This document shows positions 15,271 to 29,424 of a stretch of DNA of 64,000 bases, piece after piece. The stretch spans positions 62,001 through 126,000 of the forward strand of contig JALCDB010000001.1 of NCBI GenBank assembly GCA_022641095.1, read 5' to 3'. This DNA is from Bacilli bacterium (lineage in GTDB: Bacteria; Bacillota_I; Bacilli_A; RFN20; CAG-826). The position numbers and the translations under genes are program-made. The notes below the pieces were generated by a model, which searched no databases, was not told the origin of the DNA, and saw only the letters and a program-made list of their open reading frames with translations. Numbering within the stretch: position 1 is the stretch's first letter; each line of letters opens with the position of its first letter.

Positions 15271-17061
15271 CTATTTCGCGAAAAGCGTCCTCTCAAGTTC
15301 GTCCACGAGTTCCTTCATGCGGGCCGTGACCGCCAAAAACGGGTCCTTTTTCGTAAGGTCGACCCCGGCGGCCCTAACCTCCTCGATCGGGAAATCGGAT
15401 CCGCCCATTTTGAGGAGCCCAAGGTAACGCTCGAAGGCCCCCGGCTCGCCCCTCTTGACCAATTCGTAAAGAAGCATCGAGGCGGTGAAGCTCGTCGCGT
15501 ACTGATAGACGTAAAACGGCGTGTAGAAAAGATGGGGGATATAGGCCCAAACGAGGGGCTTCAGTTTCTCTTCCGTGATGTCGATGCCGTAATAGACTTT
15601 GTAGAGCTTCGTCATTTCGTCCGAAAGAACCTGGAAGTTGATGGGCTTCCCCGCCTCCGCCATCTTGCTCACGTCGTACTCGTAATGGGCGAAGAGGGTT
15701 TGCCGGTAGAAGGTCGAAACGATTTGGTCGATGGCCTTCTGAAGGAGGCAGATCTTCGTCTCGCGGTCCAGTTTTCCCGAGGAAAGCATGTAATCGAGCA
15801 GATTGTGCTCGTTGAAAGTCGAGGCGATCTCGGCCACGAAAATGGTGTACTCCTGCTTCATCACGGGCTGGCTCTCAAGGGAATAGAGGGTGTGGATGCT
15901 GTGACCGGATTCGTGGGCCACGGTGAAGCAATCGTCGAGCCGACCCTCGAAATTGAAGAGGATCACCGGATGCAAGGCCTCGCTTCCATCCTTGTAGCCG
16001 CCGTTGCTATAGGCGCCGGTCCGTTTTCCCAACCCCGGGTAAACGTCGACGTACCCATCTTTGAGAACCTCGTGGGCCTTTTCCTGAAAATCCGCGGGAA
16101 AGCGCGAGATCGAGGCGAAGAAGATATCCTTGGCTTCCGGGTAACTATAGCGTTTCTCGCTATGGGCCAACTCCAGGAAACGGTCGTACGAGCGGTGCTT
16201 GCTCAAGCCAAGGTACTTGGCCCTGATGTCCAGATACCGATGCAAAGGCTCGGCGTTTTGGCTGGCCGTCTCGATAAGGTTCATAAAGACGGAGGCGGGT
16301 ATTTTGTTCCCGGCGAGATGGCTCTCGAGGATCGAAGGGTAATGGCGGGCCTTCATCTCGCTGAGTTCGCCCTGAAGGACGGTGTTGTAAATCTCGCCAT
16401 AGGCGTTCTTCCGCTCATCGAAATAGGAATAGAGGGCCTCGAAGATCCTTTGGCGGTCTTCGGCCTTCCCCGCGTCGGCGATGAGGCTCGTCCAGTTGCT
16501 GAGGCTGACGGTCGTCTCCTTGCCGTCGCCAAGGGTGACCCTCTTTGGCGCGTAATCGCCGACGGAAAGGTTGCTGTAGAGTTGGGCGCCTTCGCTTAGA
16601 AGAGGCGAAAACGCGCTCGCGAGTTCCTCTTTTTCGGCGGAAAGGACGTGCTTGCTCGTGAGGAAAAGCTGCGCGAATCGATGGTCGAATTCCTTGAACT
16701 CGGGGTTTTCGGAAAGGAATCTCTTGATGCCCTCTTCCCCGATGGCGAGGATTTCGGGGCTCTCGAAGGCGGTCGCCTCCGACAAATCGCTCAAGGCCAA
16801 ACGCACTTTGGCGAGCCGGGCGGAATTCTTGACGAGGCGTTTGTCGACGTCGCTCGCGCACTCGGCGTAGAGGTATAGGCGCGAGGCCAACTTCTCGAGC
16901 GAGCGCTCGGTGGAGAGGTAGCTCCGTAAGTGCCCGAAATCGGACAACTTGCCCTTGTGGCTCGCCAAAGAGGGGATGATCTCCTCTTTCAGTTTCGCGA
17001 GATCCCTGTCGAAACTCCCCTCATCCGGATAGATTTTGCTTAAGTCCCACTTGTCAGCCAT
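15271..17061 (-). CDS. pepF: oligoendopeptidase F
   Basis: M3 zinc motif TVAHESGHSIHT and FVAEIASTFNEHNLLDYML; full-length PepF-like protein. Confidence 0.93.
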   Translation of the reverse strand: MADKWDLSKIYPDEGSFDRDLAKLKEEIIPSLASHKGKLSDFGHLRSYLSTERSLEKLASRLYLYAECASDVDKRLVKNSARLAKVRLALSDLSEATAFESPEILAIGEEGIKRFLSENPEFKEFDHRFAQLFLTSKHVLSAEKEELASAFSPLLSEGAQLYSNLSVGDYAPKRVTLGDGKETTVSLSNWTSLIADAGKAEDRQRIFEALYSYFDERKNAYGEIYNTVLQGELSEMKARHYPSILESHLAGNKIPASVFMNLIETASQNAEPLHRYLDIRAKYLGLSKHRSYDRFLELAHSEKRYSYPEAKDIFFASISRFPADFQEKAHEVLKDGYVDVYPGLGKRTGAYSNGGYKDGSEALHPVILFNFEGRLDDCFTVAHESGHSIHTLYSLESQPVMKQEYTIFVAEIASTFNEHNLLDYMLSSGKLDRETKICLLQKAIDQIVSTFYRQTLFAHYEYDVSKMAEAGKPINFQVLSDEMTKLYKVYYGIDITEEKLKPLVWAYIPHLFYTPFYVYQYATSFTASMLLYELVKRGEPGAFERYLGLLKMGGSDFPIEEVRAAGVDLTKKDPFLAVTARMKELVDELERTLFAK

Positions 17062-17203
17062 ATGCCACGCTCCTTATTTCAACGCCGATTATACAGGATT
17101 TCGGGCACGTCTAATATCCATCGATGGAAAATAATCGGTTTGGGCTTCCCCTCAAAGACGCGGAGAGCGAAAAAAGGGCGCAAAGCAAAAGGCAGGGGTT
17201 AAA

Positions 17204-17992
17204 ATGAGTCAGTCCACGGAGGCAACGGCCATGAGAATCGTATCGTTCAACGTCAACGGGATCCGCGCCATCTTAGGGAAAAACCTGCCCGAGGATTTCA
17301 AGAAGCTCGATCCCGACATTTTCGTGATCGAGGAAACCAAGTGGAGCGAAGGGCTCCATCTCGGGTTCCCGTTCGTCCCTCTCGGCTATGAGCCCTATTG
17401 GACCGTGAGCAAAGTCAAGAAAGGCTATTCGGGCGTCGCGATCCTCACCAGGGTCAAGCCCTTAAGCGTTTCCTATGGGCTGAAGGGGGGCAAGTACGAC
17501 GACGAAGGTCGGATCGTCACCCTCGAATTTCCCTCTTTCTATCTCGTCGGAGCCTATGTCCCCAATAGCGGCGAGGGCCTGAAGCGCCTCCCCTTCCGCC
17601 TGACCTTCGAGGACGACATGCTCGCTTACTTGAAGGAACTGGACGCGAAAAAGCCCCTCATCCTCACCGGCGACCTCAACGTGGCCCACGAGGAAATCGA
17701 TATCAAGAACCCCAAAGCCAACGTCCATAACGCTGGGTTCACGGCGGAGGAGCGAGGCCGGATGGACCGCCTTCTTTCGAGCGGGTTCGTCGACGCCTTC
17801 CGAAGGCTGCACCCCGCCAAAATCCAGTATTCCTGGTGGAGTTACCGCTTCCACGCGAGGGAGAACGGCGCCGGATGGCGCATCGATTACTTTATCGTGA
17901 GCGAGCGCCTTTTCCCGCAGGTGAAGGATTCCCTTATCCACAATGAAATCATGGGCAGTGACCACTGCCCCGTCGAACTCGACGTTTTTTAA
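17204..17992 (+). CDS. exodeoxyribonuclease III family protein
   Basis: MRIVSFNVNGIRAI, DIFVIEETKW, LTGDLNVAHEEIDI, SDHCPVEL. The internal ATG at 17231 has a better Shine-Dalgarno and may be the true start. Confidence 0.92.
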   Translation: MSQSTEATAMRIVSFNVNGIRAILGKNLPEDFKKLDPDIFVIEETKWSEGLHLGFPFVPLGYEPYWTVSKVKKGYSGVAILTRVKPLSVSYGLKGGKYDDEGRIVTLEFPSFYLVGAYVPNSGEGLKRLPFRLTFEDDMLAYLKELDAKKPLILTGDLNVAHEEIDIKNPKANVHNAGFTAEERGRMDRLLSSGFVDAFRRLHPAKIQYSWWSYRFHARENGAGWRIDYFIVSERLFPQVKDSLIHNEIMGSDHCPVELDVF

Positions 17993-18034
17993 GCCAAGGG
18001 ATCTCAAAAAAGGCAAATACAGCACCGCCGACTC

Positions 18035-18865
18035 TTATCGTTCCGTGGGGTCATTTTTGACGACCACCGCCTTCGAGGAAGGTTTCTTGTTCCTCTTCCT
18101 TTGCGGCTTCTTTTTGAAAATGCGCTTCAAGTGGGTGCGGCTTTCGGCCTTGGCGGCTTGAAGCAGTTCGGCCTTCCGTTCCTTGTTTTTCGCCACCACC
18201 TCATCCCCCATCGCGGCGATCTCGTCGCGCAACTCCTGATCCTCAAGCGGGGTCGAGGGGTCCTCCTCGGGCCCATTGACGAGATCGTCCAACCTCCGCA
18301 ACGGCTTGTTGAGGACGCGGAAGAAAGTCCGCTGCGGAGAGGAGATGCGGTCGACCGTCCTGACGACGGGGTTATCCATGAATTCGTCGAAATCCATCTC
18401 CAAAGCCACAAGGAGCATATGCGAGTACTTCGTGAAGGCGGCTTGGAAAGCCTGAAGCAGAATCTGGATGAAAAGGGCGACGATCGAGACGATGGTGAGG
18501 CACTTCTGAAGGAAACTGTCGTCAAAGACCACGATGGTGTAGATCGATAAGCCAACCGTGAACGCCCGCGAAACGATCTTGAAATAGGCGACGGCGCGAC
18601 GGACGCCGTTCCTCACCACCCGTTCATAAGAACCTTTTTTGAAAAAAGTGATCAGATAAAGGACGAAATAGACGAACGAGATTCCTAGAAGAGCGAGGTT
18701 GATGACGAAAAGCGGAAGGTTCTTGTTCTGGTAGACGTTAAAAACGTATAACCCCATCAGGATAAGTTGAACGACGATCTCGTAAACCCTTCTGAAAACG
18801 GCTAAATCAGACCAAATCTTATGAACGACCGCGGTCGTTTTGTCGGCGTCGAGCGATTTCATCAT
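18035..18865 (-). CDS. integral membrane protein of unknown function
   Basis: Several hydrophobic segments, Lys/Arg-rich C-terminus (RIFKKKPQRKRNKKPSSK); long ORF flanked by intergenic DNA. Confidence 0.6.
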   Translation of the reverse strand: MMKSLDADKTTAVVHKIWSDLAVFRRVYEIVVQLILMGLYVFNVYQNKNLPLFVINLALLGISFVYFVLYLITFFKKGSYERVVRNGVRRAVAYFKIVSRAFTVGLSIYTIVVFDDSFLQKCLTIVSIVALFIQILLQAFQAAFTKYSHMLLVALEMDFDEFMDNPVVRTVDRISSPQRTFFRVLNKPLRRLDDLVNGPEEDPSTPLEDQELRDEIAAMGDEVVAKNKERKAELLQAAKAESRTHLKRIFKKKPQRKRNKKPSSKAVVVKNDPTER

Positions 18866-19304
18866 ACCCCATGACCCTCTCGCGGTTCTATTCTACGGCA
18901 ACCGGCAGGGAAATGAAGGAAAAGGCGGTTTGACAAAGAAGCCGGGCATGATTCGATGCCCCGCACAACCGAGGCATCCTTTCGGCGAGGAAAATTTTAC
19001 GTTCGGCTCACCTCGCTTTTTTTCTTTGCGATGGGAAGCCGCTCGCAAAGCGAGCCGATTCGCCTTTTGGTTGACGAAGGGTCCGCTAGCGGCGCGGAAA
19101 GAGGTTCCCTTCGTGGCTCATGCCCTTGCCTGGATTCCGGAATAAAGAGCAGGCGAACCCGTTGCCTGCGCTTGACGAATCGGCGAGTCTCGTTTCCTTT
19201 CTTCCTTGCCCCGGGTCAGGAAAAAGGAAGGAAAACGAAAATGTTTCGCAACGAGGAAGGGTATGCGATTGCATTCGCGTGCACGCATGTATAGAATGCA
19301 AATA

Positions 19305-19385
19305 GTGAAAGGTAGAACCGGAGCAATTCGGCGACGCAAAACTAGAGGGTCTCGCCATCGTCGAGAGACAGCCAGTTGCCACGAA
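19305..19385 (+). promoter_or_regulatory. candidate c-di-GMP-I (GEMM) riboswitch aptamer
   Basis: GGTAGAACCGGAGCAATTCGGCGACGCAAAACTAGAGGGTCTCGCCATCGTCGAGAGACAGCCAGTTGCC. Has a short C/G helix before GACGCAAA, a GTCTC...GAGAC stem, and the AGCCAGTTGCC strand pairing back to 5' GGTA. Confidence 0.75.
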
Positions 19386-19397
19386 TAGGGCATTTTA

Positions 19398-21872
19398 ATG
19401 GCGGGACCAAAGAAGAAATCGTCAATTGGGAAATCGCGTCTCATCGTGAACGCGGTCCTTTTGATTCTCTCGATTCTCACGATGAGCGTGGCCAGTTACG
19501 CCTGGTTCGCCACCAGCCAGCAGGCGACCGACCAAATAACACTGAGAACCGACGGAAACGCCATTTCGATAGACGCCTATGCCTATCGCCAGAACTACGA
19601 GCTCGACGGCGAAGGGAACCCCATCCCGGTCGCCTACAGCAAAAACGGAGGGTCGGCTTTGCTGAACGCCACGAAAGGCGCGACCGACAGCGCGGGCAAT
19701 TACGCCGTCAACTTCTCGAGCGAGGCGCTGCAGACTTTCGCTTATGGCGACCTCTATAGCGGCGAACTCGCCGCCAACGAAGCGAACTTCCCCCATCTTT
19801 ATATCGAACTGCGCTACATCAAGCCCGCCCTTAACGGCTTCGTCCAGGCCGCCATATCGGATTTTTCCTACGCCCCCGACATCGCCGGGTTCACCAATAT
19901 AACGCAAGAGCTCGACTACCAGTACCGTTCCACCACCGTTCAGAACACCTCTTCGAGCAAGCACGTGAACGGCTTGAAGGCCGCCTACGCCGATTCCGCT
20001 TACGCGGCGAGCCCTTGGACTTCCCTCGGCTCTGCCCCGAGCGACATCGAGCTTTACAACAACACGACCGATATCTCCGGATACGCCTACGATCCGAGCT
20101 ACACCCCGCTCAACCAATGCTATGTCAGAGGTTTCTCCTCCAAGCACAATTCCGAATACTACTATTCGAAGGCGACCCTCATCGAGTTGCGGGTCGACCC
20201 CCTCGCCTGGATCAAGTATTTCAACGCGAACCCGGGGCTCGACGCGAGCCGGCTCAACTTCGGCATATCGTTCAGCATCTCCCTGAATTTCTCCTCGACC
20301 GCCTTCTTCTCCAACGACAAAGCGCCGAAGCTCGTCGTCTCGAAAACGAGGGCCAACTTAAGCGTCGACGGGGGCGCGACGGCCAGTTTCATCGCCTATA
20401 ATTTCTCCGCGACCCCAACGATAACGACGGCTTTTTCGGCCTCGGGGGTCGCCAGCGCGTCCGTTTCCGGAACGACGATCGCCCTTTCGGGCATAAGCGA
20501 AGGGAGCGCCATCCTCACCCTCACCGCATCCGCCCCTTCCGAAACCGCCTCCGCCACCATCGAGGTCAACGTCTATAGCGGCCCGACTCTAGCCCTGTCC
20601 AGTTCGGCGATGACGATGACCGAGGGCGAGGACGACCTCATATCCGTCGAGCCGATCCTCTTCCGCAATTCCCCGACCCTATCCGTCGCGAACTCCGATG
20701 AGAGCGTCGCTTCCGCCACGGTCGTCTCCTATTCCGTTCTCGTCGAGGCCCTTTCCGCCGGAACGACGACGGTGACGGTCAGCGGCCGCGCCGGCGACGG
20801 CCACGTCTACAGTTCCTCCTGCCTCATCACCGTCGAGGCCGGAACGAGGTCGCTGACTTCCATCGCTGTGACGAGCCTTCCGAGGAAAACCGCCTATATC
20901 GTCGGGCAATCCTTCAGCACCGAAGGGATGGTGGTGACGGGGAGCTACAGCGACGGGACCGTCGGCGCCGTTTCCGGCTACCGGGTCGCGCCGTCTTCGG
21001 GAACGATCTTCACCGAGGACGAGATCGGAAGCGTCGCGATCGAGGTTTCCTATTTCGACGAGACCGCCTCCTTCTCCGTCGAGGTCGCCGCCAACGACAA
21101 TTATCGGCTCGTCACCTCGTCCAGTTGCCTGATTCAGGGGGAACGGTATCTGATCGCCTCCGGTTCGTCTTTGTCCGAAAGCGTCGATATCTTGGGCATT
21201 GAAGAGGAAAACGAGCATCGGTCGGCCGTTTCGTCCATCGTGTCCTCCTCGACGCCGCCCAGCATCGCGTACTCCTCAGCCATGGATGCCCTCACCCTCA
21301 ACGGAAACGAGGACGGCTGGCTCCTGAAAGAGAAAATCGACGGGGTTTCGCAATACCTTAATTTCCCCGGAACCGGTTCCGGCCTCCTCGGCGCGACGGA
21401 TGGGAACGCGACCGGATGCGCGTGGTCCATCGCTTTCGACGAGGCGACCGGGCGGGCCCGGATCCAAAGCGCTTCCTCAAGCGGGACTTATCTCCAATAC
21501 GATTCCGCGAACGGGTGCTTCGACTGCGGGGCGTCCCCGGATACCGTTTTCCTGTTCACGAACTCCCTTTCGGTAGCGGACACCTCTTTGACGCTCGTCC
21601 CCTCTTCGCTTGAGCTGTTCGTCGGCGACAGCGACGGCGTGACCGCCAGCGAGGGCCAAGGGACCGTTCTCGTCTCGGCCGCCATCGCCGACCCAAGCGT
21701 CGCCAGCATCGCCGTTGACGGGAATTACATCGAAGTGACGGGCCTCGCCGCGGGAACCACCTCGCTCACCGTCGTCGGCAAGGGCAACACGGGCGAGGTG
21801 AGGTCGAGTTGCCCCGTGACCGTTACGGACCCACCGCCGGAGGAAACCCCGGATACGGGGACGAATCCATGA
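19398..21872 (+). CDS. secreted or anchored surface protein with Ig-like (Big) repeats and a SipW/TasA-like signal segment
   Basis: N-terminus KSRLIVNAVLLILSILTMSVASYAWFATSQQ; repeated Big-like units (e.g. VEALSAGTTTVTVSGRAGDGHVYSSSCLITV and VTGLAAGTTSLTVVGKGNTGEVRSSCPVTV); C-terminal TDPPPEETPDTG. Confidence 0.8.
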   Translation: MAGPKKKSSIGKSRLIVNAVLLILSILTMSVASYAWFATSQQATDQITLRTDGNAISIDAYAYRQNYELDGEGNPIPVAYSKNGGSALLNATKGATDSAGNYAVNFSSEALQTFAYGDLYSGELAANEANFPHLYIELRYIKPALNGFVQAAISDFSYAPDIAGFTNITQELDYQYRSTTVQNTSSSKHVNGLKAAYADSAYAASPWTSLGSAPSDIELYNNTTDISGYAYDPSYTPLNQCYVRGFSSKHNSEYYYSKATLIELRVDPLAWIKYFNANPGLDASRLNFGISFSISLNFSSTAFFSNDKAPKLVVSKTRANLSVDGGATASFIAYNFSATPTITTAFSASGVASASVSGTTIALSGISEGSAILTLTASAPSETASATIEVNVYSGPTLALSSSAMTMTEGEDDLISVEPILFRNSPTLSVANSDESVASATVVSYSVLVEALSAGTTTVTVSGRAGDGHVYSSSCLITVEAGTRSLTSIAVTSLPRKTAYIVGQSFSTEGMVVTGSYSDGTVGAVSGYRVAPSSGTIFTEDEIGSVAIEVSYFDETASFSVEVAANDNYRLVTSSSCLIQGERYLIASGSSLSESVDILGIEEENEHRSAVSSIVSSSTPPSIAYSSAMDALTLNGNEDGWLLKEKIDGVSQYLNFPGTGSGLLGATDGNATGCAWSIAFDEATGRARIQSASSSGTYLQYDSANGCFDCGASPDTVFLFTNSLSVADTSLTLVPSSLELFVGDSDGVTASEGQGTVLVSAAIADPSVASIAVDGNYIEVTGLAAGTTSLTVVGKGNTGEVRSSCPVTVTDPPPEETPDTGTNP

Positions 21873-24523
21873 AGGAAACGCCAAGGAAGAAACTGAAAGG
21901 CACCCTCGGGGGCATCCTCGCGATAGCGATGGCCGCTTTCGTTTCGCTCAACGCCGTGAGCGCCCTCGCCGCCTACCTTTCCATCAGCCGGGACTTTTTC
22001 TCCGCCGACTACCGAACCGACGAGATCGGGGACACCTATTTCAGCGGGGGCGGCGGGACGAGCGAGGACCCGTACCTGATCGATAACGCGCAGAATCTGC
22101 GGAACCTCCAAAAGCTCAACGCCCTGGGACTCTTTTCCTCGGCGACCTGCTTTTCGCTTGGCAGTTCCTTCGTCTGGGACGACGCGGCGAAGCCCCTCCT
22201 GCCGATAGGAAGCGACGACCAGCCCTTCGACGGGACCTTCAACGGGCAAGGCAACACGATAACCTCGCTCGTGGTCGACGGCGACAACACCTGGGACGTC
22301 GGGATGTTCGGCTACGTCGGGATCAACGGCACGATCGAGAATTTCTTCCTCGACGCCCCGACCATCTGCCTCGGCGCCAACGACGGGGGCGGCTCCTCGG
22401 CGACGACCAACCCCCTCGACGTTTACCTGAAAAGCGCGGCCCAAGCGCTCCCCGAACCCCAAGGGAAAGACGCCGGGACGGGCTTAACGTGGACGAACGC
22501 GTCCGCTTCCTCGACGATTTCCGGATTGCAGCAAAGCGTGAGCGCCTCCATAGGCGGGACGACGAGGACCTTCCCCATCGATTGGAAATCGAGCGACCCG
22601 AGCCTTCTGAGCGAAAACGCCGACGGGACGTGGTCGACGCACGCCAATGGCCTCAGCGAGAACCCGGACACGGACCTTTACCAGGTCATGCTCACCGGAC
22701 GGGTCTACGGCCGCGTCGACGGGCAGGTGATGCCCTACACCCTCGAACGCTACGAAGTCGTCATCTACGGAAACGGGCTCATAACCGATGACACGGTCAG
22801 CCTTGAGACCGGGACGAGCTCCGCCGCCACCACCGTGACGCGCGGGATGTTCAAAACCATCTGGCCCCTCGACGGCAACGGAGCGGACACCGAATACCAT
22901 TCGATATACGTCGGCTTCTTTTGCGGCCATCTCGACGGGATGGCCACTTATCTCGGGCTCGTCGGGGGCAACTCCGCCTCGGGTTCCGCCAACGGCAAAA
23001 TCGTCGTTTCGGGAAGGATCGCCGAATCGCGGACCTGCCTCATCGGGCGCTGCCGCGGCGACGATGTGCGCGATGGCACCGGATCCAACCAATTCGGCCA
23101 TACGTACGACTTCACCAAGAACACGGACAGCTGGACCGCGATCGAGGCGCCGACCCAGGGCGCCTACACGGACCCTTCCCAGTTCAGCGCCCAGAACACC
23201 GCGGCGCAGAGCCTTAACGCGAAGTACGGGGTCGAATCGGCCAGCGACACCTATAAGTACCTGCGCCTTTACCCAAGCGTCACCCATGGCGCGGTCTCCT
23301 ACGATTACGAAGGGGAGGACGGCTCTTCGCAAACGGCCAGCGACGTGAGAACGCTCACGTTTTCCCACGCTTTGCAAGCCAACACCTACACCGCCTACCA
23401 CCGGACCAACTTCGCCTGGCCGACCTCCGACCTCAACGGGGACGGCCAACTTGACCAAAACGACATCCCGGAAGACGAGGAGGAAACGCGCTCCGACGTC
23501 ACGAGGAAACTAAGGAACTCAAGCGTGGACAACAACATGAACCTCGCGGCGGACTTCGCGCTCAATAACGGCATTTGGATCAGCACCAAGGGGGCCAACG
23601 ACGACGTCATGAACACCCTCATGGGCAATAACGTCTTCACCCTCAATTTCCGGATAACCTACGTGGCGAGCACCTCCAACCCGAACAAAACCGCCAATTC
23701 CTGGCAAATCCTTTACAACAACTACAACCCCCACATCGCCCGCCTGCAGATCACGAATTTCTGGGGTTATCTGTTTTTGGGCAGTTACTACGCCTTTATC
23801 TACAAGGACAGCCCGCTTCAGAATCTCCTTTGGTTCGACCTCCATCACCCCATGACGACGACCGACGACAGCACTTTCGCCCCCGTCACGGAAAACGGCG
23901 CGGACGCCTCCTACTACACCCCGGTTCCAATCGTCGCCGACGGAAGCCTCCAAGAAGCCAACGTGAGCGTCACCGTCGACCGCAACTCCTCCTTCTGGAC
24001 GACCATGTTCACGAATTGGCTCAGCAACGACACCTGGTATCCGTGCTTCGCTATCGGAGCCGGGAAGACGGATTCCTTGTCCCATGGCAACACGGCGTTC
24101 GATTACTGGTCCACCACCTCATCGCAGCGAGGGCTCCCCAACACAAACGAGCAGTTCTTTCACGATTCGTTCGCCCTCAACGGCGACCTCGATCTGAACT
24201 TGCTTTCCTTTCAGTGCATCTTCACCAACGCCAACGGCAACATCACCGACCTCATGAACAACGTCGACTACATCTACGACAAAACCGACTGCGCTTACGA
24301 CGCCAGCGCCGGCGCGTTCTCGGACTGGAACCGTTCGAGCGGGGTCAAGGTGAATTTCGACGTCACGACCGCCCTCACCAGCGGGAACTCCACCTATTAT
24401 TTCTACCGGGAAGTCGGCAACGGCGGCATCAATTCGACCGTCCACGCCCTTTATTCCAACGCGAATTACAAGCCCGCCAACGACGACAATTACCAAAAAG
24501 CGGACATCGAGGCCGTCCCATGA
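21869..24523 (+). CDS. large secreted surface protein
   Basis: Start MKETPRKKLKGTLGGILAIAMAAFVSLNAVSALAAYLSIS (hydrophobic leader); GLUG-like DGTFNGQGNTITSLVVDG...VGMFGYVG; ATGA overlap with the upstream stop. Confidence 0.8.
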   Translation: MKETPRKKLKGTLGGILAIAMAAFVSLNAVSALAAYLSISRDFFSADYRTDEIGDTYFSGGGGTSEDPYLIDNAQNLRNLQKLNALGLFSSATCFSLGSSFVWDDAAKPLLPIGSDDQPFDGTFNGQGNTITSLVVDGDNTWDVGMFGYVGINGTIENFFLDAPTICLGANDGGGSSATTNPLDVYLKSAAQALPEPQGKDAGTGLTWTNASASSTISGLQQSVSASIGGTTRTFPIDWKSSDPSLLSENADGTWSTHANGLSENPDTDLYQVMLTGRVYGRVDGQVMPYTLERYEVVIYGNGLITDDTVSLETGTSSAATTVTRGMFKTIWPLDGNGADTEYHSIYVGFFCGHLDGMATYLGLVGGNSASGSANGKIVVSGRIAESRTCLIGRCRGDDVRDGTGSNQFGHTYDFTKNTDSWTAIEAPTQGAYTDPSQFSAQNTAAQSLNAKYGVESASDTYKYLRLYPSVTHGAVSYDYEGEDGSSQTASDVRTLTFSHALQANTYTAYHRTNFAWPTSDLNGDGQLDQNDIPEDEEETRSDVTRKLRNSSVDNNMNLAADFALNNGIWISTKGANDDVMNTLMGNNVFTLNFRITYVASTSNPNKTANSWQILYNNYNPHIARLQITNFWGYLFLGSYYAFIYKDSPLQNLLWFDLHHPMTTTDDSTFAPVTENGADASYYTPVPIVADGSLQEANVSVTVDRNSSFWTTMFTNWLSNDTWYPCFAIGAGKTDSLSHGNTAFDYWSTTSSQRGLPNTNEQFFHDSFALNGDLDLNLLSFQCIFTNANGNITDLMNNVDYIYDKTDCAYDASAGAFSDWNRSSGVKVNFDVTTALTSGNSTYYFYREVGNGGINSTVHALYSNANYKPANDDNYQKADIEAVP

Positions 24524-25377
24524 ACGGACGCTCCCGGCTTAAAATGGCCGCCGAAATAGCCTTGATCGCGCTCACGGTCGGTTCTTTGTCCGTCGGCACT
24601 TACGCTTGGTTCTCGATGCAAAACCGGGCGACGGCGACCCTTTGGAGCATGCACATCGTAAAAGGGCTGAGCAACAAACTGAAATACTATCGGGGCAACT
24701 ACGATCCCGCGAGCGCCTCCTACACCGGTTATCCCGACATCCGGATGAGCGGAGTCGGCCCCTCCAACGCCTCGACGGTGTCTTCCTACGCCTCGGATTT
24801 CATCACCGTCCCCGGCGGGAAGTTCTCGTCCGGAGGGCCGCTTGACATCTCCCATCTGACCCCCGGATACTGCCAAACTTTCTCTTTCGAGGTCGGAAAC
24901 GATTCGGGAGCGGACATCCCGGTGGAGATGGACCTGACCTCCTTTCTTTCCCCCGAAAGCCCAACCAACCGGATTTACGACGGCGGGAACACCGATTGTC
25001 CCATCACCCTCGGAAGCGCGATCGACATCTATGCCAAAGGCTATGAGCTGAGCGATGACGACGTGGCCAACACCGCCTTCGCCAACTCTTTCGTCAAGGA
25101 TTACATGGAAGCGGCCCCTGAGGACCGTTTCACGTACCATGATATCCGCGACGGAGCGGGCCAAAAATACGTTCTCTATGATGGCATGATCCCAGGGAAG
25201 AAGACCTATATCGTTTTTCTCACCCTCGAGTTCACCGACTTGGGGGATACGTTTTACGCCTACGAGGGCACGGACGGAACCTACCTCTATTACGTTCGCT
25301 CCCCAAACGGAAGCAGCGACTGCTACCAAGGCCTTACCTTCGCGCTAAAGGATATTTTCATCAAGAACCCGGAATGA
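24520..25377 (+). CDS. secreted protein with a SipW/TasA-like N-terminus
   Basis: MNGRSRLKMAAEIALIALTVGSLSVGTYAWFSMQNRATATLW; ATGA overlap with the upstream stop. The ORF track starts at 23830 only because the frame is open. Confidence 0.8.
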   Translation: MNGRSRLKMAAEIALIALTVGSLSVGTYAWFSMQNRATATLWSMHIVKGLSNKLKYYRGNYDPASASYTGYPDIRMSGVGPSNASTVSSYASDFITVPGGKFSSGGPLDISHLTPGYCQTFSFEVGNDSGADIPVEMDLTSFLSPESPTNRIYDGGNTDCPITLGSAIDIYAKGYELSDDDVANTAFANSFVKDYMEAAPEDRFTYHDIRDGAGQKYVLYDGMIPGKKTYIVFLTLEFTDLGDTFYAYEGTDGTYLYYVRSPNGSSDCYQGLTFALKDIFIKNPE

Positions 25378-28230: not shown

Positions 28231-29319
28231 TTCTATGGCGGAATCGTCCCTCTAGGGTACAGGATAGCGGACAAGAAATACGAGATAGACGAGAAAGAAG
28301 CCGCGATCGTCCGAGAGGCCTTCTCGAGAAGGGCGAGGGGCGAGACCTTCCGATCGATCATGGGCGACTTCAACCGACGTGGGATCAAAACGAAGAGGGG
28401 GAAGCCCTTTTCCTATAATTCTTTCCAGAATCTGCTCAAAAACGAGAGATACGTCGGGACCTATCTATACGGCGACACGAGGATCCCCGACGCCATACCG
28501 GCCATCGTCGATTTCGAGACTTTCAGGGCCGTCAAGGAGGAATTCGACATGGACAGGCACCGTCTGGCGACGCCGCATGACGTCGCGAATGGCGCCGGGT
28601 ACGCGCTCACAGGGAAAATCTACTGCGGATCCTGCGGGGCGCCGATGGTTGGCGTTTCCGCGGGCGGAAAAAGCAGGAAGGCCTACCACTACTACGTCTG
28701 CCGGAACGCCTACGGCAAGTACCGCGACCCCGCCAACCCATGCAGGAACCCGAAGCTCCGGAAGGAGGAGATAGAAGGGCTCGTCGCGAACGAGGCGAGG
28801 CTAGTCTACAAGGACAAGAGGCTCCAAAAGCTCTTCGTCGACACGTTCACGGAGGCCTTCGGCAAGATAATGAGGGGGACGGTCGACCAAACGGCGCTCA
28901 TCCAGGCGGAGATCGCTAAGGCCGAAAAGAGGAAGGGCTCGGCGCTCGACGCCTTGATAGCCAATCCGGCGCTGGCCAAGGACCTGACCGCCAAAGTGGA
29001 GGGGATCGACAAGGAGATCTCCGACTTGGAGGCCCAACTGAAGGGCCACCGGGCCAACCTGTCGTCCGTGAGGATCAGGCGGGAGGACGTCGAGGCGTTC
29101 CTCGACCGAGTGTTCGCCGATCCGGGCTCCTGCGACGCCGAGATCATCGACGCGATGGTCCAAAAAGTTACCTGCTTCGAGGACGGGCGCATCGAGATAG
29201 TCATGAATATATCCGATTACGCCACAGAAAAAGCACCGCAAGCGAGCGGTGCTTATATCTGCAGAATGGTGACCCGGACGGGATTCGAACCCATGAATGT
29301 ATGCGTGAAAGGCATATGA
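28231..29319 (+). pseudogene. remnant of a large serine recombinase lacking the N-terminal catalytic domain
   Basis: Open frame FYGGIVPLGYRIADKKYEIDEKEAAIVREAFSRRARGETFRSIMGDFNRRGIKTKRGKPFSYNSFQNLLKNERYVGTYLYG... zinc-ribbon GKIYCGSCGAPMVG. No resolvase domain upstream; the 3' end reads through a terminator into tRNA-Glu. Confidence 0.8.
29225..29254 (-). terminator. Rho-independent terminator of the tRNA-Asn/tRNA-Glu unit
   Basis: Minus strand AAGCACCGC-tcgctt-GCGGTGCTT-TTTC. Confidence 0.7.
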
Positions 29320-29343
29320 GTTAAGCCGCTTCTCCACCGGGCC
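29267..29343 (-). tRNA. tRNA-Glu (TTC)
   Basis: Minus strand GGCCCGGTGGAGAAGCGGCTTAACTCATATGCCTTTCACGCATACATTCATGGGTTCGAATCCCGTCCGGGTCACCA; anticodon loop CTTTCAC. Confidence 0.9.
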
Positions 29344-29349
29344 AAAAAA

Positions 29350-29424
29350 TGGCGCTCACTATAGGGCTCGAACCTACAACCGATCGGTTAACAGCCGATT
29401 GCTCTACCATTGAGCTAAGTGAGC
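29350..29424 (-). tRNA. tRNA-Asn (GTT)
   Basis: Minus strand GCTCACTTAGCTCAATGGTAGAGCAATCGGCTGTTAACCGATCGGTTGTAGGTTCGAGCCCTATAGTGAGCGCCA; loop CTGTTAA. Confidence 0.92.

Follow-up and report, generated by a model that had tools for sequence, protein, structure and literature searches.

A candidate c-di-GMP-I riboswitch in front of a secreted-protein operon in a CAG-826 genome of the Bacilli

The Bc2 RNA in front of the cap gene of Bacillus thuringiensis is a class I c-di-GMP riboswitch for which ON control by antitermination has been demonstrated experimentally (PMC4933901). According to a review, c-di-GMP riboswitches rarely control the enzymes of c-di-GMP metabolism themselves (PMC6366702). 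In the literature that we searched, we found no publication joining 'c-di-GMP riboswitch', TasA and SipW. Here we describe an element of the same class in a 64,000-nucleotide stretch of DNA (the window, the numbering of which is used below) from a Bacilli genome of 1.59 Mb (15 contigs, 88.8% complete). This genome belongs to the same genus as the MAG UW_MP_BACIL6_1 (JALCSW01), which is classed as order RFN20, family CAG-826, genus UBA4951 (PMC9302107). We consider it probable, at roughly two chances in three, that the element is a working c-di-GMP-I riboswitch which acts as a translational ON switch and heads an operon for surface proteins that are secreted with SipW-type signals, within a genome-wide c-di-GMP regulon.

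The aptamer and its leader

When the whole window was scanned with cmscan (64 kb, both strands, 4227 Rfam families), RF01051 (c-di-GMP-I) was the sole match besides five tRNAs. The match lies at 19301-19383 on the forward strand, covers the entire model (1-87 of 87) and, with 48.2 bits, clears the cut-off of 35 (E 2.3e-6 for this search), in agreement with the GEMM-I assignment made in an earlier, sequence-only reading of this DNA. The sequence strings quoted in that reading are all present in the window; however, the gap to the ATG at 19398, which it gave as ~18 nt, is 14 nt when counted from the end of the match. Moreover, the AGCCAG...TTGCC strand, which it had taken for a receptor-like partner of GGTA, makes up the 3' strand of P3, junction J1/3 and the beginning of P1, and includes the C92 equivalent at 19379. 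The model of the GGC subtype (RF03167) reaches 42.9 bits at the same element, under its own cut-off of 59. The leader has the following features.

19269..19297, + strand: sigma-A-like promoter, TTGCAT (19269-19274), 17-nt spacer, TAGAAT (19292-19297)
19301..19383, + strand: c-di-GMP-I riboswitch aptamer (RF01051, 48.2 bits; covariation among relatives; alignment mapping)
19347..19358, + strand: 5' strand of P3 with its loop (GGGUCUCGCCAU), complementary to the start-codon region 19398-19408 in the MFE fold
19377..19392, + strand: hairpin UGCC (19377-19380)/GGCA (19389-19392), predicted by folding to cover the Shine-Dalgarno sequence
19387..19390, + strand: Shine-Dalgarno sequence AGGG, 7 nt before the ATG, predicted to be free in the aptamer form

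The ligand-contacting bases, which we take to be G20, A47 and C92 in Vc2 numbering, are kept in the window as G19311, A19338 and C19379, as mapped in an alignment of 51 sequences. The junction layout used for this mapping was that of a published description (PMC6274999). P2 is topped by a GNRA (GCAA) tetraloop at 19323-19326, and for 8 of the 14 predicted pairs of P2 and P3 at least one of 51 relatives has both partners changed. The element thus resembles the RF01051 family in its full-length covariance match, the P2/P3 architecture, the tetraloop and the equivalents of G20, A47 and C92, and differs from it in that P2 opens with a G-C pair followed by a U-G wobble instead of C-G. Its score is below that of most RF01051 members of the clade and is the lowest of the three copies in its own genome (63.2, 52.4 and 48.2 bits), and the clade consensus is broken at U19313 (C expected) and G19315 (A expected). 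Judged from the covariance match and the alignment, the window element is a genuine c-di-GMP-I family member, and an ordinary one of a known riboswitch class.

The position of the promoter places the expected transcription start near 19304. In the other two copies of the host genome consensus-like promoters are found at the same place (TTGACA with TATTCT or TAAAAT), and similar ones also precede the aptamers of many relatives; with promoters on the 5' side of the aptamer, transcripts should start at the aptamer's edge. An element resembling CACGCGTG/GCACGCATG lies at 19275-19291, and its counterparts upstream of relatives' aptamers are often situated between the -35 and -10 boxes; it may be the site of a shared regulator.

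The downstream operon and the host genome

Three genes follow on the same strand (19398-21872, 21869-24523 and 24520-25377), each sharing an ATGA overlap with its neighbour.

19398..21872, + strand: gene 1, 824 aa, with an N-terminal SYAWF signal segment and Big_3/Big_2-like Ig domains
21869..24523, + strand: gene 2, 884 aa, GLUG-like secreted protein (YFSGGGGTSEDPYLI...LRNL), ATGA overlap with gene 1
24520..25377, + strand: gene 3, 285 aa, secreted, with a TYAWF signal segment, ATGA overlap with gene 2

The operon encodes secreted Ig-like and GLUG-like proteins, which supports the surface-protein operon proposed in the sequence-only reading. When a stricter signal motif was applied, no such gene was found elsewhere in the window outside these three. 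In Pfam, no family exceeded its cut-off in the operon proteins save the Ig-like domains of protein 1. The profile of the gene-2 family (A5) matches PDB 3n6z (E 3.6e-6); the profile of protein 3 matched no PDB entry, and an AlphaFold2 model of protein 3 made from a two-sequence alignment had a pLDDT of 30 and was unusable as a fold. The similarity of the window's protein 3 to camelysin/TasA (PF12389) is weak (E 0.24) and confined to residues 8-40, which belong to the signal segment, and the best E-values among the protein 3 homologues, 0.11 and 0.24, were found in 2 of 7. With no PF12389 match above the cut-off, membership of protein 3 in the TasA family was rejected as unsupported at domain level. 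The secretion signals, the domains and the link to SipW suggest that the operon proteins could serve in surface fibres, matrix or adhesion.

The host genome contains three RF01051 matches, one of which is the window copy. One of the others (C3) precedes a paralogous copy of the three-gene operon, including a paralogue of gene 1. The genes behind the remaining riboswitch (C2) code for two proteins that contain membrane or secretion segments, an ATPase with weak AAA resemblance, a DUF2357 protein and a SipW-like signal peptidase, as well as for EAL, nucleosidase-like and GGDEF-EAL proteins, one of each. The peptidase matches NF046067 (E 2.5e-13) with 50 bits against a cut-off of 190 and TIGR02228 with 44.7 bits against 51.85. 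The apparent C2 operon (L010 12217-18534 and L011 1531-7240) ends in the EAL and GGDEF-EAL genes, which suggests that c-di-GMP feeds back on its own level through the riboswitch; a GGDEF gene lies upstream. Riboswitches stand directly before GGDEF-EAL genes in several relatives as well (L063, L064, L069, L078). Also upstream of C2, on the opposite strand, is a gene whose secreted product carries an STFAWF signal segment (L010 10470-11354, minus strand), at which no riboswitch of its own was detected.

A search for GGDEF and EAL proteins elsewhere in the genome, which had been proposed as a check on the riboswitch, found three GGDEF genes over the cut-off and a degenerate fourth, together with two EAL genes. 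In at least two of the GGDEF proteins the motifs are intact and the position that sets base specificity is occupied by the canonical Asp. Neither a sortase nor a penicillin-binding transpeptidase was detected in the host genome (89% complete), in line with the prediction that CAG-826 is wall-less (PMC10868615).

Window positions ~17000-23700, a block that takes in the riboswitch and the larger part of the operon, show almost 100% identity with a sister species (L013), and positions 24-27 kb about 88-96%. Conservation in the sister species was rejected as a sign of selection, because the whole ~17-23.7 kb block is nearly identical; the pattern suggests that the block was recently exchanged between the species. 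At 28360-29319 the window contains a recombinase-type ORF with partial recombinase and zinc-ribbon domains, which overlaps two oppositely oriented tRNA genes (29270-29424) at its end and is possibly the remnant of a tRNA-associated mobile element.

Relatives, direction of switching and alternative readings

Among 61 genomes, RF01051 was found in 27 and GGDEF in 35. All 27 riboswitch genomes encode GGDEF proteins, and none of the 26 GGDEF-less genomes has a riboswitch (Fisher P 1.5e-10, a value that ignores shared ancestry). The downstream regions of 59 riboswitches (53 distinct aptamer sequences) were examined up to 7.5 kb each, the genes being labelled by phmmer and by a permissive signal-motif pattern. 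According to a tally made by hand, fibre-type, SipW/AAA or GGDEF/EAL operons follow in 57 of the 58 loci with at least 700 nt of downstream sequence, the exception being L071. In 15 genomes (16 pairs) a SipW-type peptidase is encoded 0.2 to 6.7 kb downstream of a riboswitch and in the same orientation. SipW-like peptidases as such are more widespread than the riboswitch (56/61 genomes), which implies that the secretion system is the more general part and that control by c-di-GMP is laid over it in a manner that varies between lineages. Strong members of the gene-2 family (E below 1e-35) occur in 22 genomes, 21 of which have the riboswitch, as judged with a profile that was derived from riboswitch loci and that divergent members elsewhere may escape. 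In the exception, G023, the gene begins near a contig end, and the riboswitch could be absent from the assembly only. Riboswitches likewise stand before the relatives of the window operon, namely the C3 operon of the same genome, both copies in G024 and the one in G005 (L088, proteins 42-48% identical).

In many relatives, L058, L061, L088 and L093 among them, the conserved 3' strand of the aptamer (AGCCAGYTGC) is complementary to near-downstream sequence that precedes U-runs. Such complementarity was within the best 5% of shuffles in 17/52 loci with the short strand and in 21/52 with the longer one (~2.6 expected), and often took the form of a terminator. It was matched by 0/200 shuffles for the terminator of L088, which stands before the G005 relative of the window operon, and by 0/300 shuffles in the host's own C2 leader. 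Since the terminator takes bases that the ligand-bound aptamer needs, the ligand should block termination, and c-di-GMP-ON control is predicted for these relatives. The SipW operon of the host genome looks transcriptionally controlled, as do many relatives.

In the window leader no terminator was seen, and the 3' strand complementarity alone is unremarkable (43/200 shuffles, for the identical copy L108); here translational control is plausible. In the predicted ligand-free fold the start-codon region is covered by the P3 5' strand, and the Shine-Dalgarno sequence by the aptamer 3' strand. The hairpin formed by the aptamer 3' strand uses the C92 equivalent and so excludes the ligand-bound form. 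The duplex between 19347-19358 and the start codon amounts to -21.3 kcal/mol over 11 bp; of the window's 942 ATG contexts, 11 do as well or better. The P3 5' strand is predicted to act as a lock on the start codon when the ligand is missing. Constraining the aptamer leaves the three Gs of the Shine-Dalgarno sequence 0.69-0.85 unpaired, compared to 0-0.5 in the unconstrained fold. The alternative fold is more stable by about 17 kcal/mol, so that switching would have to be kinetic and take place during transcription; kinetic, co-transcriptional decisions have been discussed for other GEMM switches (PMC9262584). At low c-di-GMP, the aptamer 3' strand would hide the Shine-Dalgarno sequence and the P3 5' strand the start codon, whereas at high c-di-GMP the aptamer would retain both strands, leaving the Shine-Dalgarno sequence open and the operon translated. 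The window operon would form part of a genome-wide c-di-GMP regulon of such operons, together with their likely signal peptidase and c-di-GMP-degrading enzymes.

The riboswitch could also be real but work in the opposite direction, with c-di-GMP binding masking the ribosome site or start codon and lowering the amount of surface protein. In C. difficile, the seven class I switches that function are all of the OFF type (PMC6366702), and in the aptamer-forced fold the start codon of the window operon pairs with coding sequence instead. The mean exposure from the Shine-Dalgarno sequence to the start codon is the same with and without the forced aptamer (0.52 vs 0.52), and over 31 start-proximal loci the mean change in start-site accessibility was near zero and did not discriminate between ON and OFF. 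An OFF mechanism via an extended P1 (AAUGC/GCAUU), which would bury the Shine-Dalgarno sequence, was rejected, as it requires bases 5' of the expected start site that overlap the -10 box and are probably untranscribed. Moreover, the Shine-Dalgarno sequence is freed in the aptamer form, and the relatives' terminators, including that of the related G005 operon, are built from the aptamer 3' strand and thus follow ON logic. We therefore regard OFF control as unlikely; ON is the better-supported direction predicted for the window copy, for which the direction rests on folding.

That the aptamer is degenerate and the operon expressed constitutively seems quite improbable to us. The window copy is indeed the weakest of the three and off-consensus at U19313 and G19315, its identity to the sister species is uninformative, and only 11/16 c-di-GMP riboswitches of C. 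difficile are functional (PMC6366702). However, its full-length match is over the cut-off, the ligand-contacting bases, tetraloop and promoter are all kept, and the operon's relatives also stand behind riboswitches. It is very improbable that the physiological ligand is 3',3'-cGAMP instead of c-di-GMP. The position-20 equivalent (column 11 of alignment A1) is A in 35, G in 14 and C in 2 of the 51 clade aptamers, and the G20A change lets GEMM-I bind cGAMP (PMC6274999), so that some relatives' aptamers could be less ligand-selective. However, A at this position, the mark of GEMM-Ib (3',3'-cGAMP), is not what the window has: G is found at 19311, as in both other copies of the genome. In addition, the canonical Asp was present in 12/12 GGDEF segments checked at the specificity position, which we presume to be the one generally known from Hypr enzymes.

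Meaning and comparison with known systems

The interest of the ON riboswitch proposed here lies not in its class but in its regulon, which belongs to a lineage that by prediction has neither a wall nor sortase. A genome in which no sortase or penicillin-binding transpeptidase was detected spends three riboswitches on large secreted-protein operons. If c-di-GMP turns these operons on, this would offer a handle on how wall-less Bacilli build surfaces or aggregates, and would represent a rare case of a c-di-GMP riboswitch that also controls c-di-GMP enzymes. More tentatively, and at somewhat less than even odds, class I riboswitches could make c-di-GMP the dedicated ON signal of a multi-operon surface-fibre programme in the wall-less, sortase-less RFN20, consisting of secreted proteins, a SipW-like peptidase with the AAA/DUF2357 pair, and feedback phosphodiesterases; such a programme would be a sortase-independent counterpart of the SipW-TasA matrix.

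In comparison with Bc2/cap, the window likewise has a class I riboswitch before a surface protein gene, and the ON logic of Bc2 is what is predicted for many relatives. However, Cap is a collagen adhesion protein, whereas other proteins with SipW-type signals are encoded here, and the window copy looks translational. The C. difficile regulon is similar in that several riboswitches per genome control surface structures, but there the class II ON switches govern adhesins and pili, and the class I switches are OFF (PMC6366702); furthermore, one riboswitch operon of the host genome described here includes EAL and GGDEF-EAL genes. The SipW-TasA/TapA system of Bacillus subtilis differs in that the peptidase found here is under both curated cut-offs, no TasA/camelysin domain match is above the cut-off, and a riboswitch stands in front. 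What the two systems would have in common is a putative SipW-like peptidase and secreted proteins whose signal segments are of the hydrophobic-(T/S)YAWF type.
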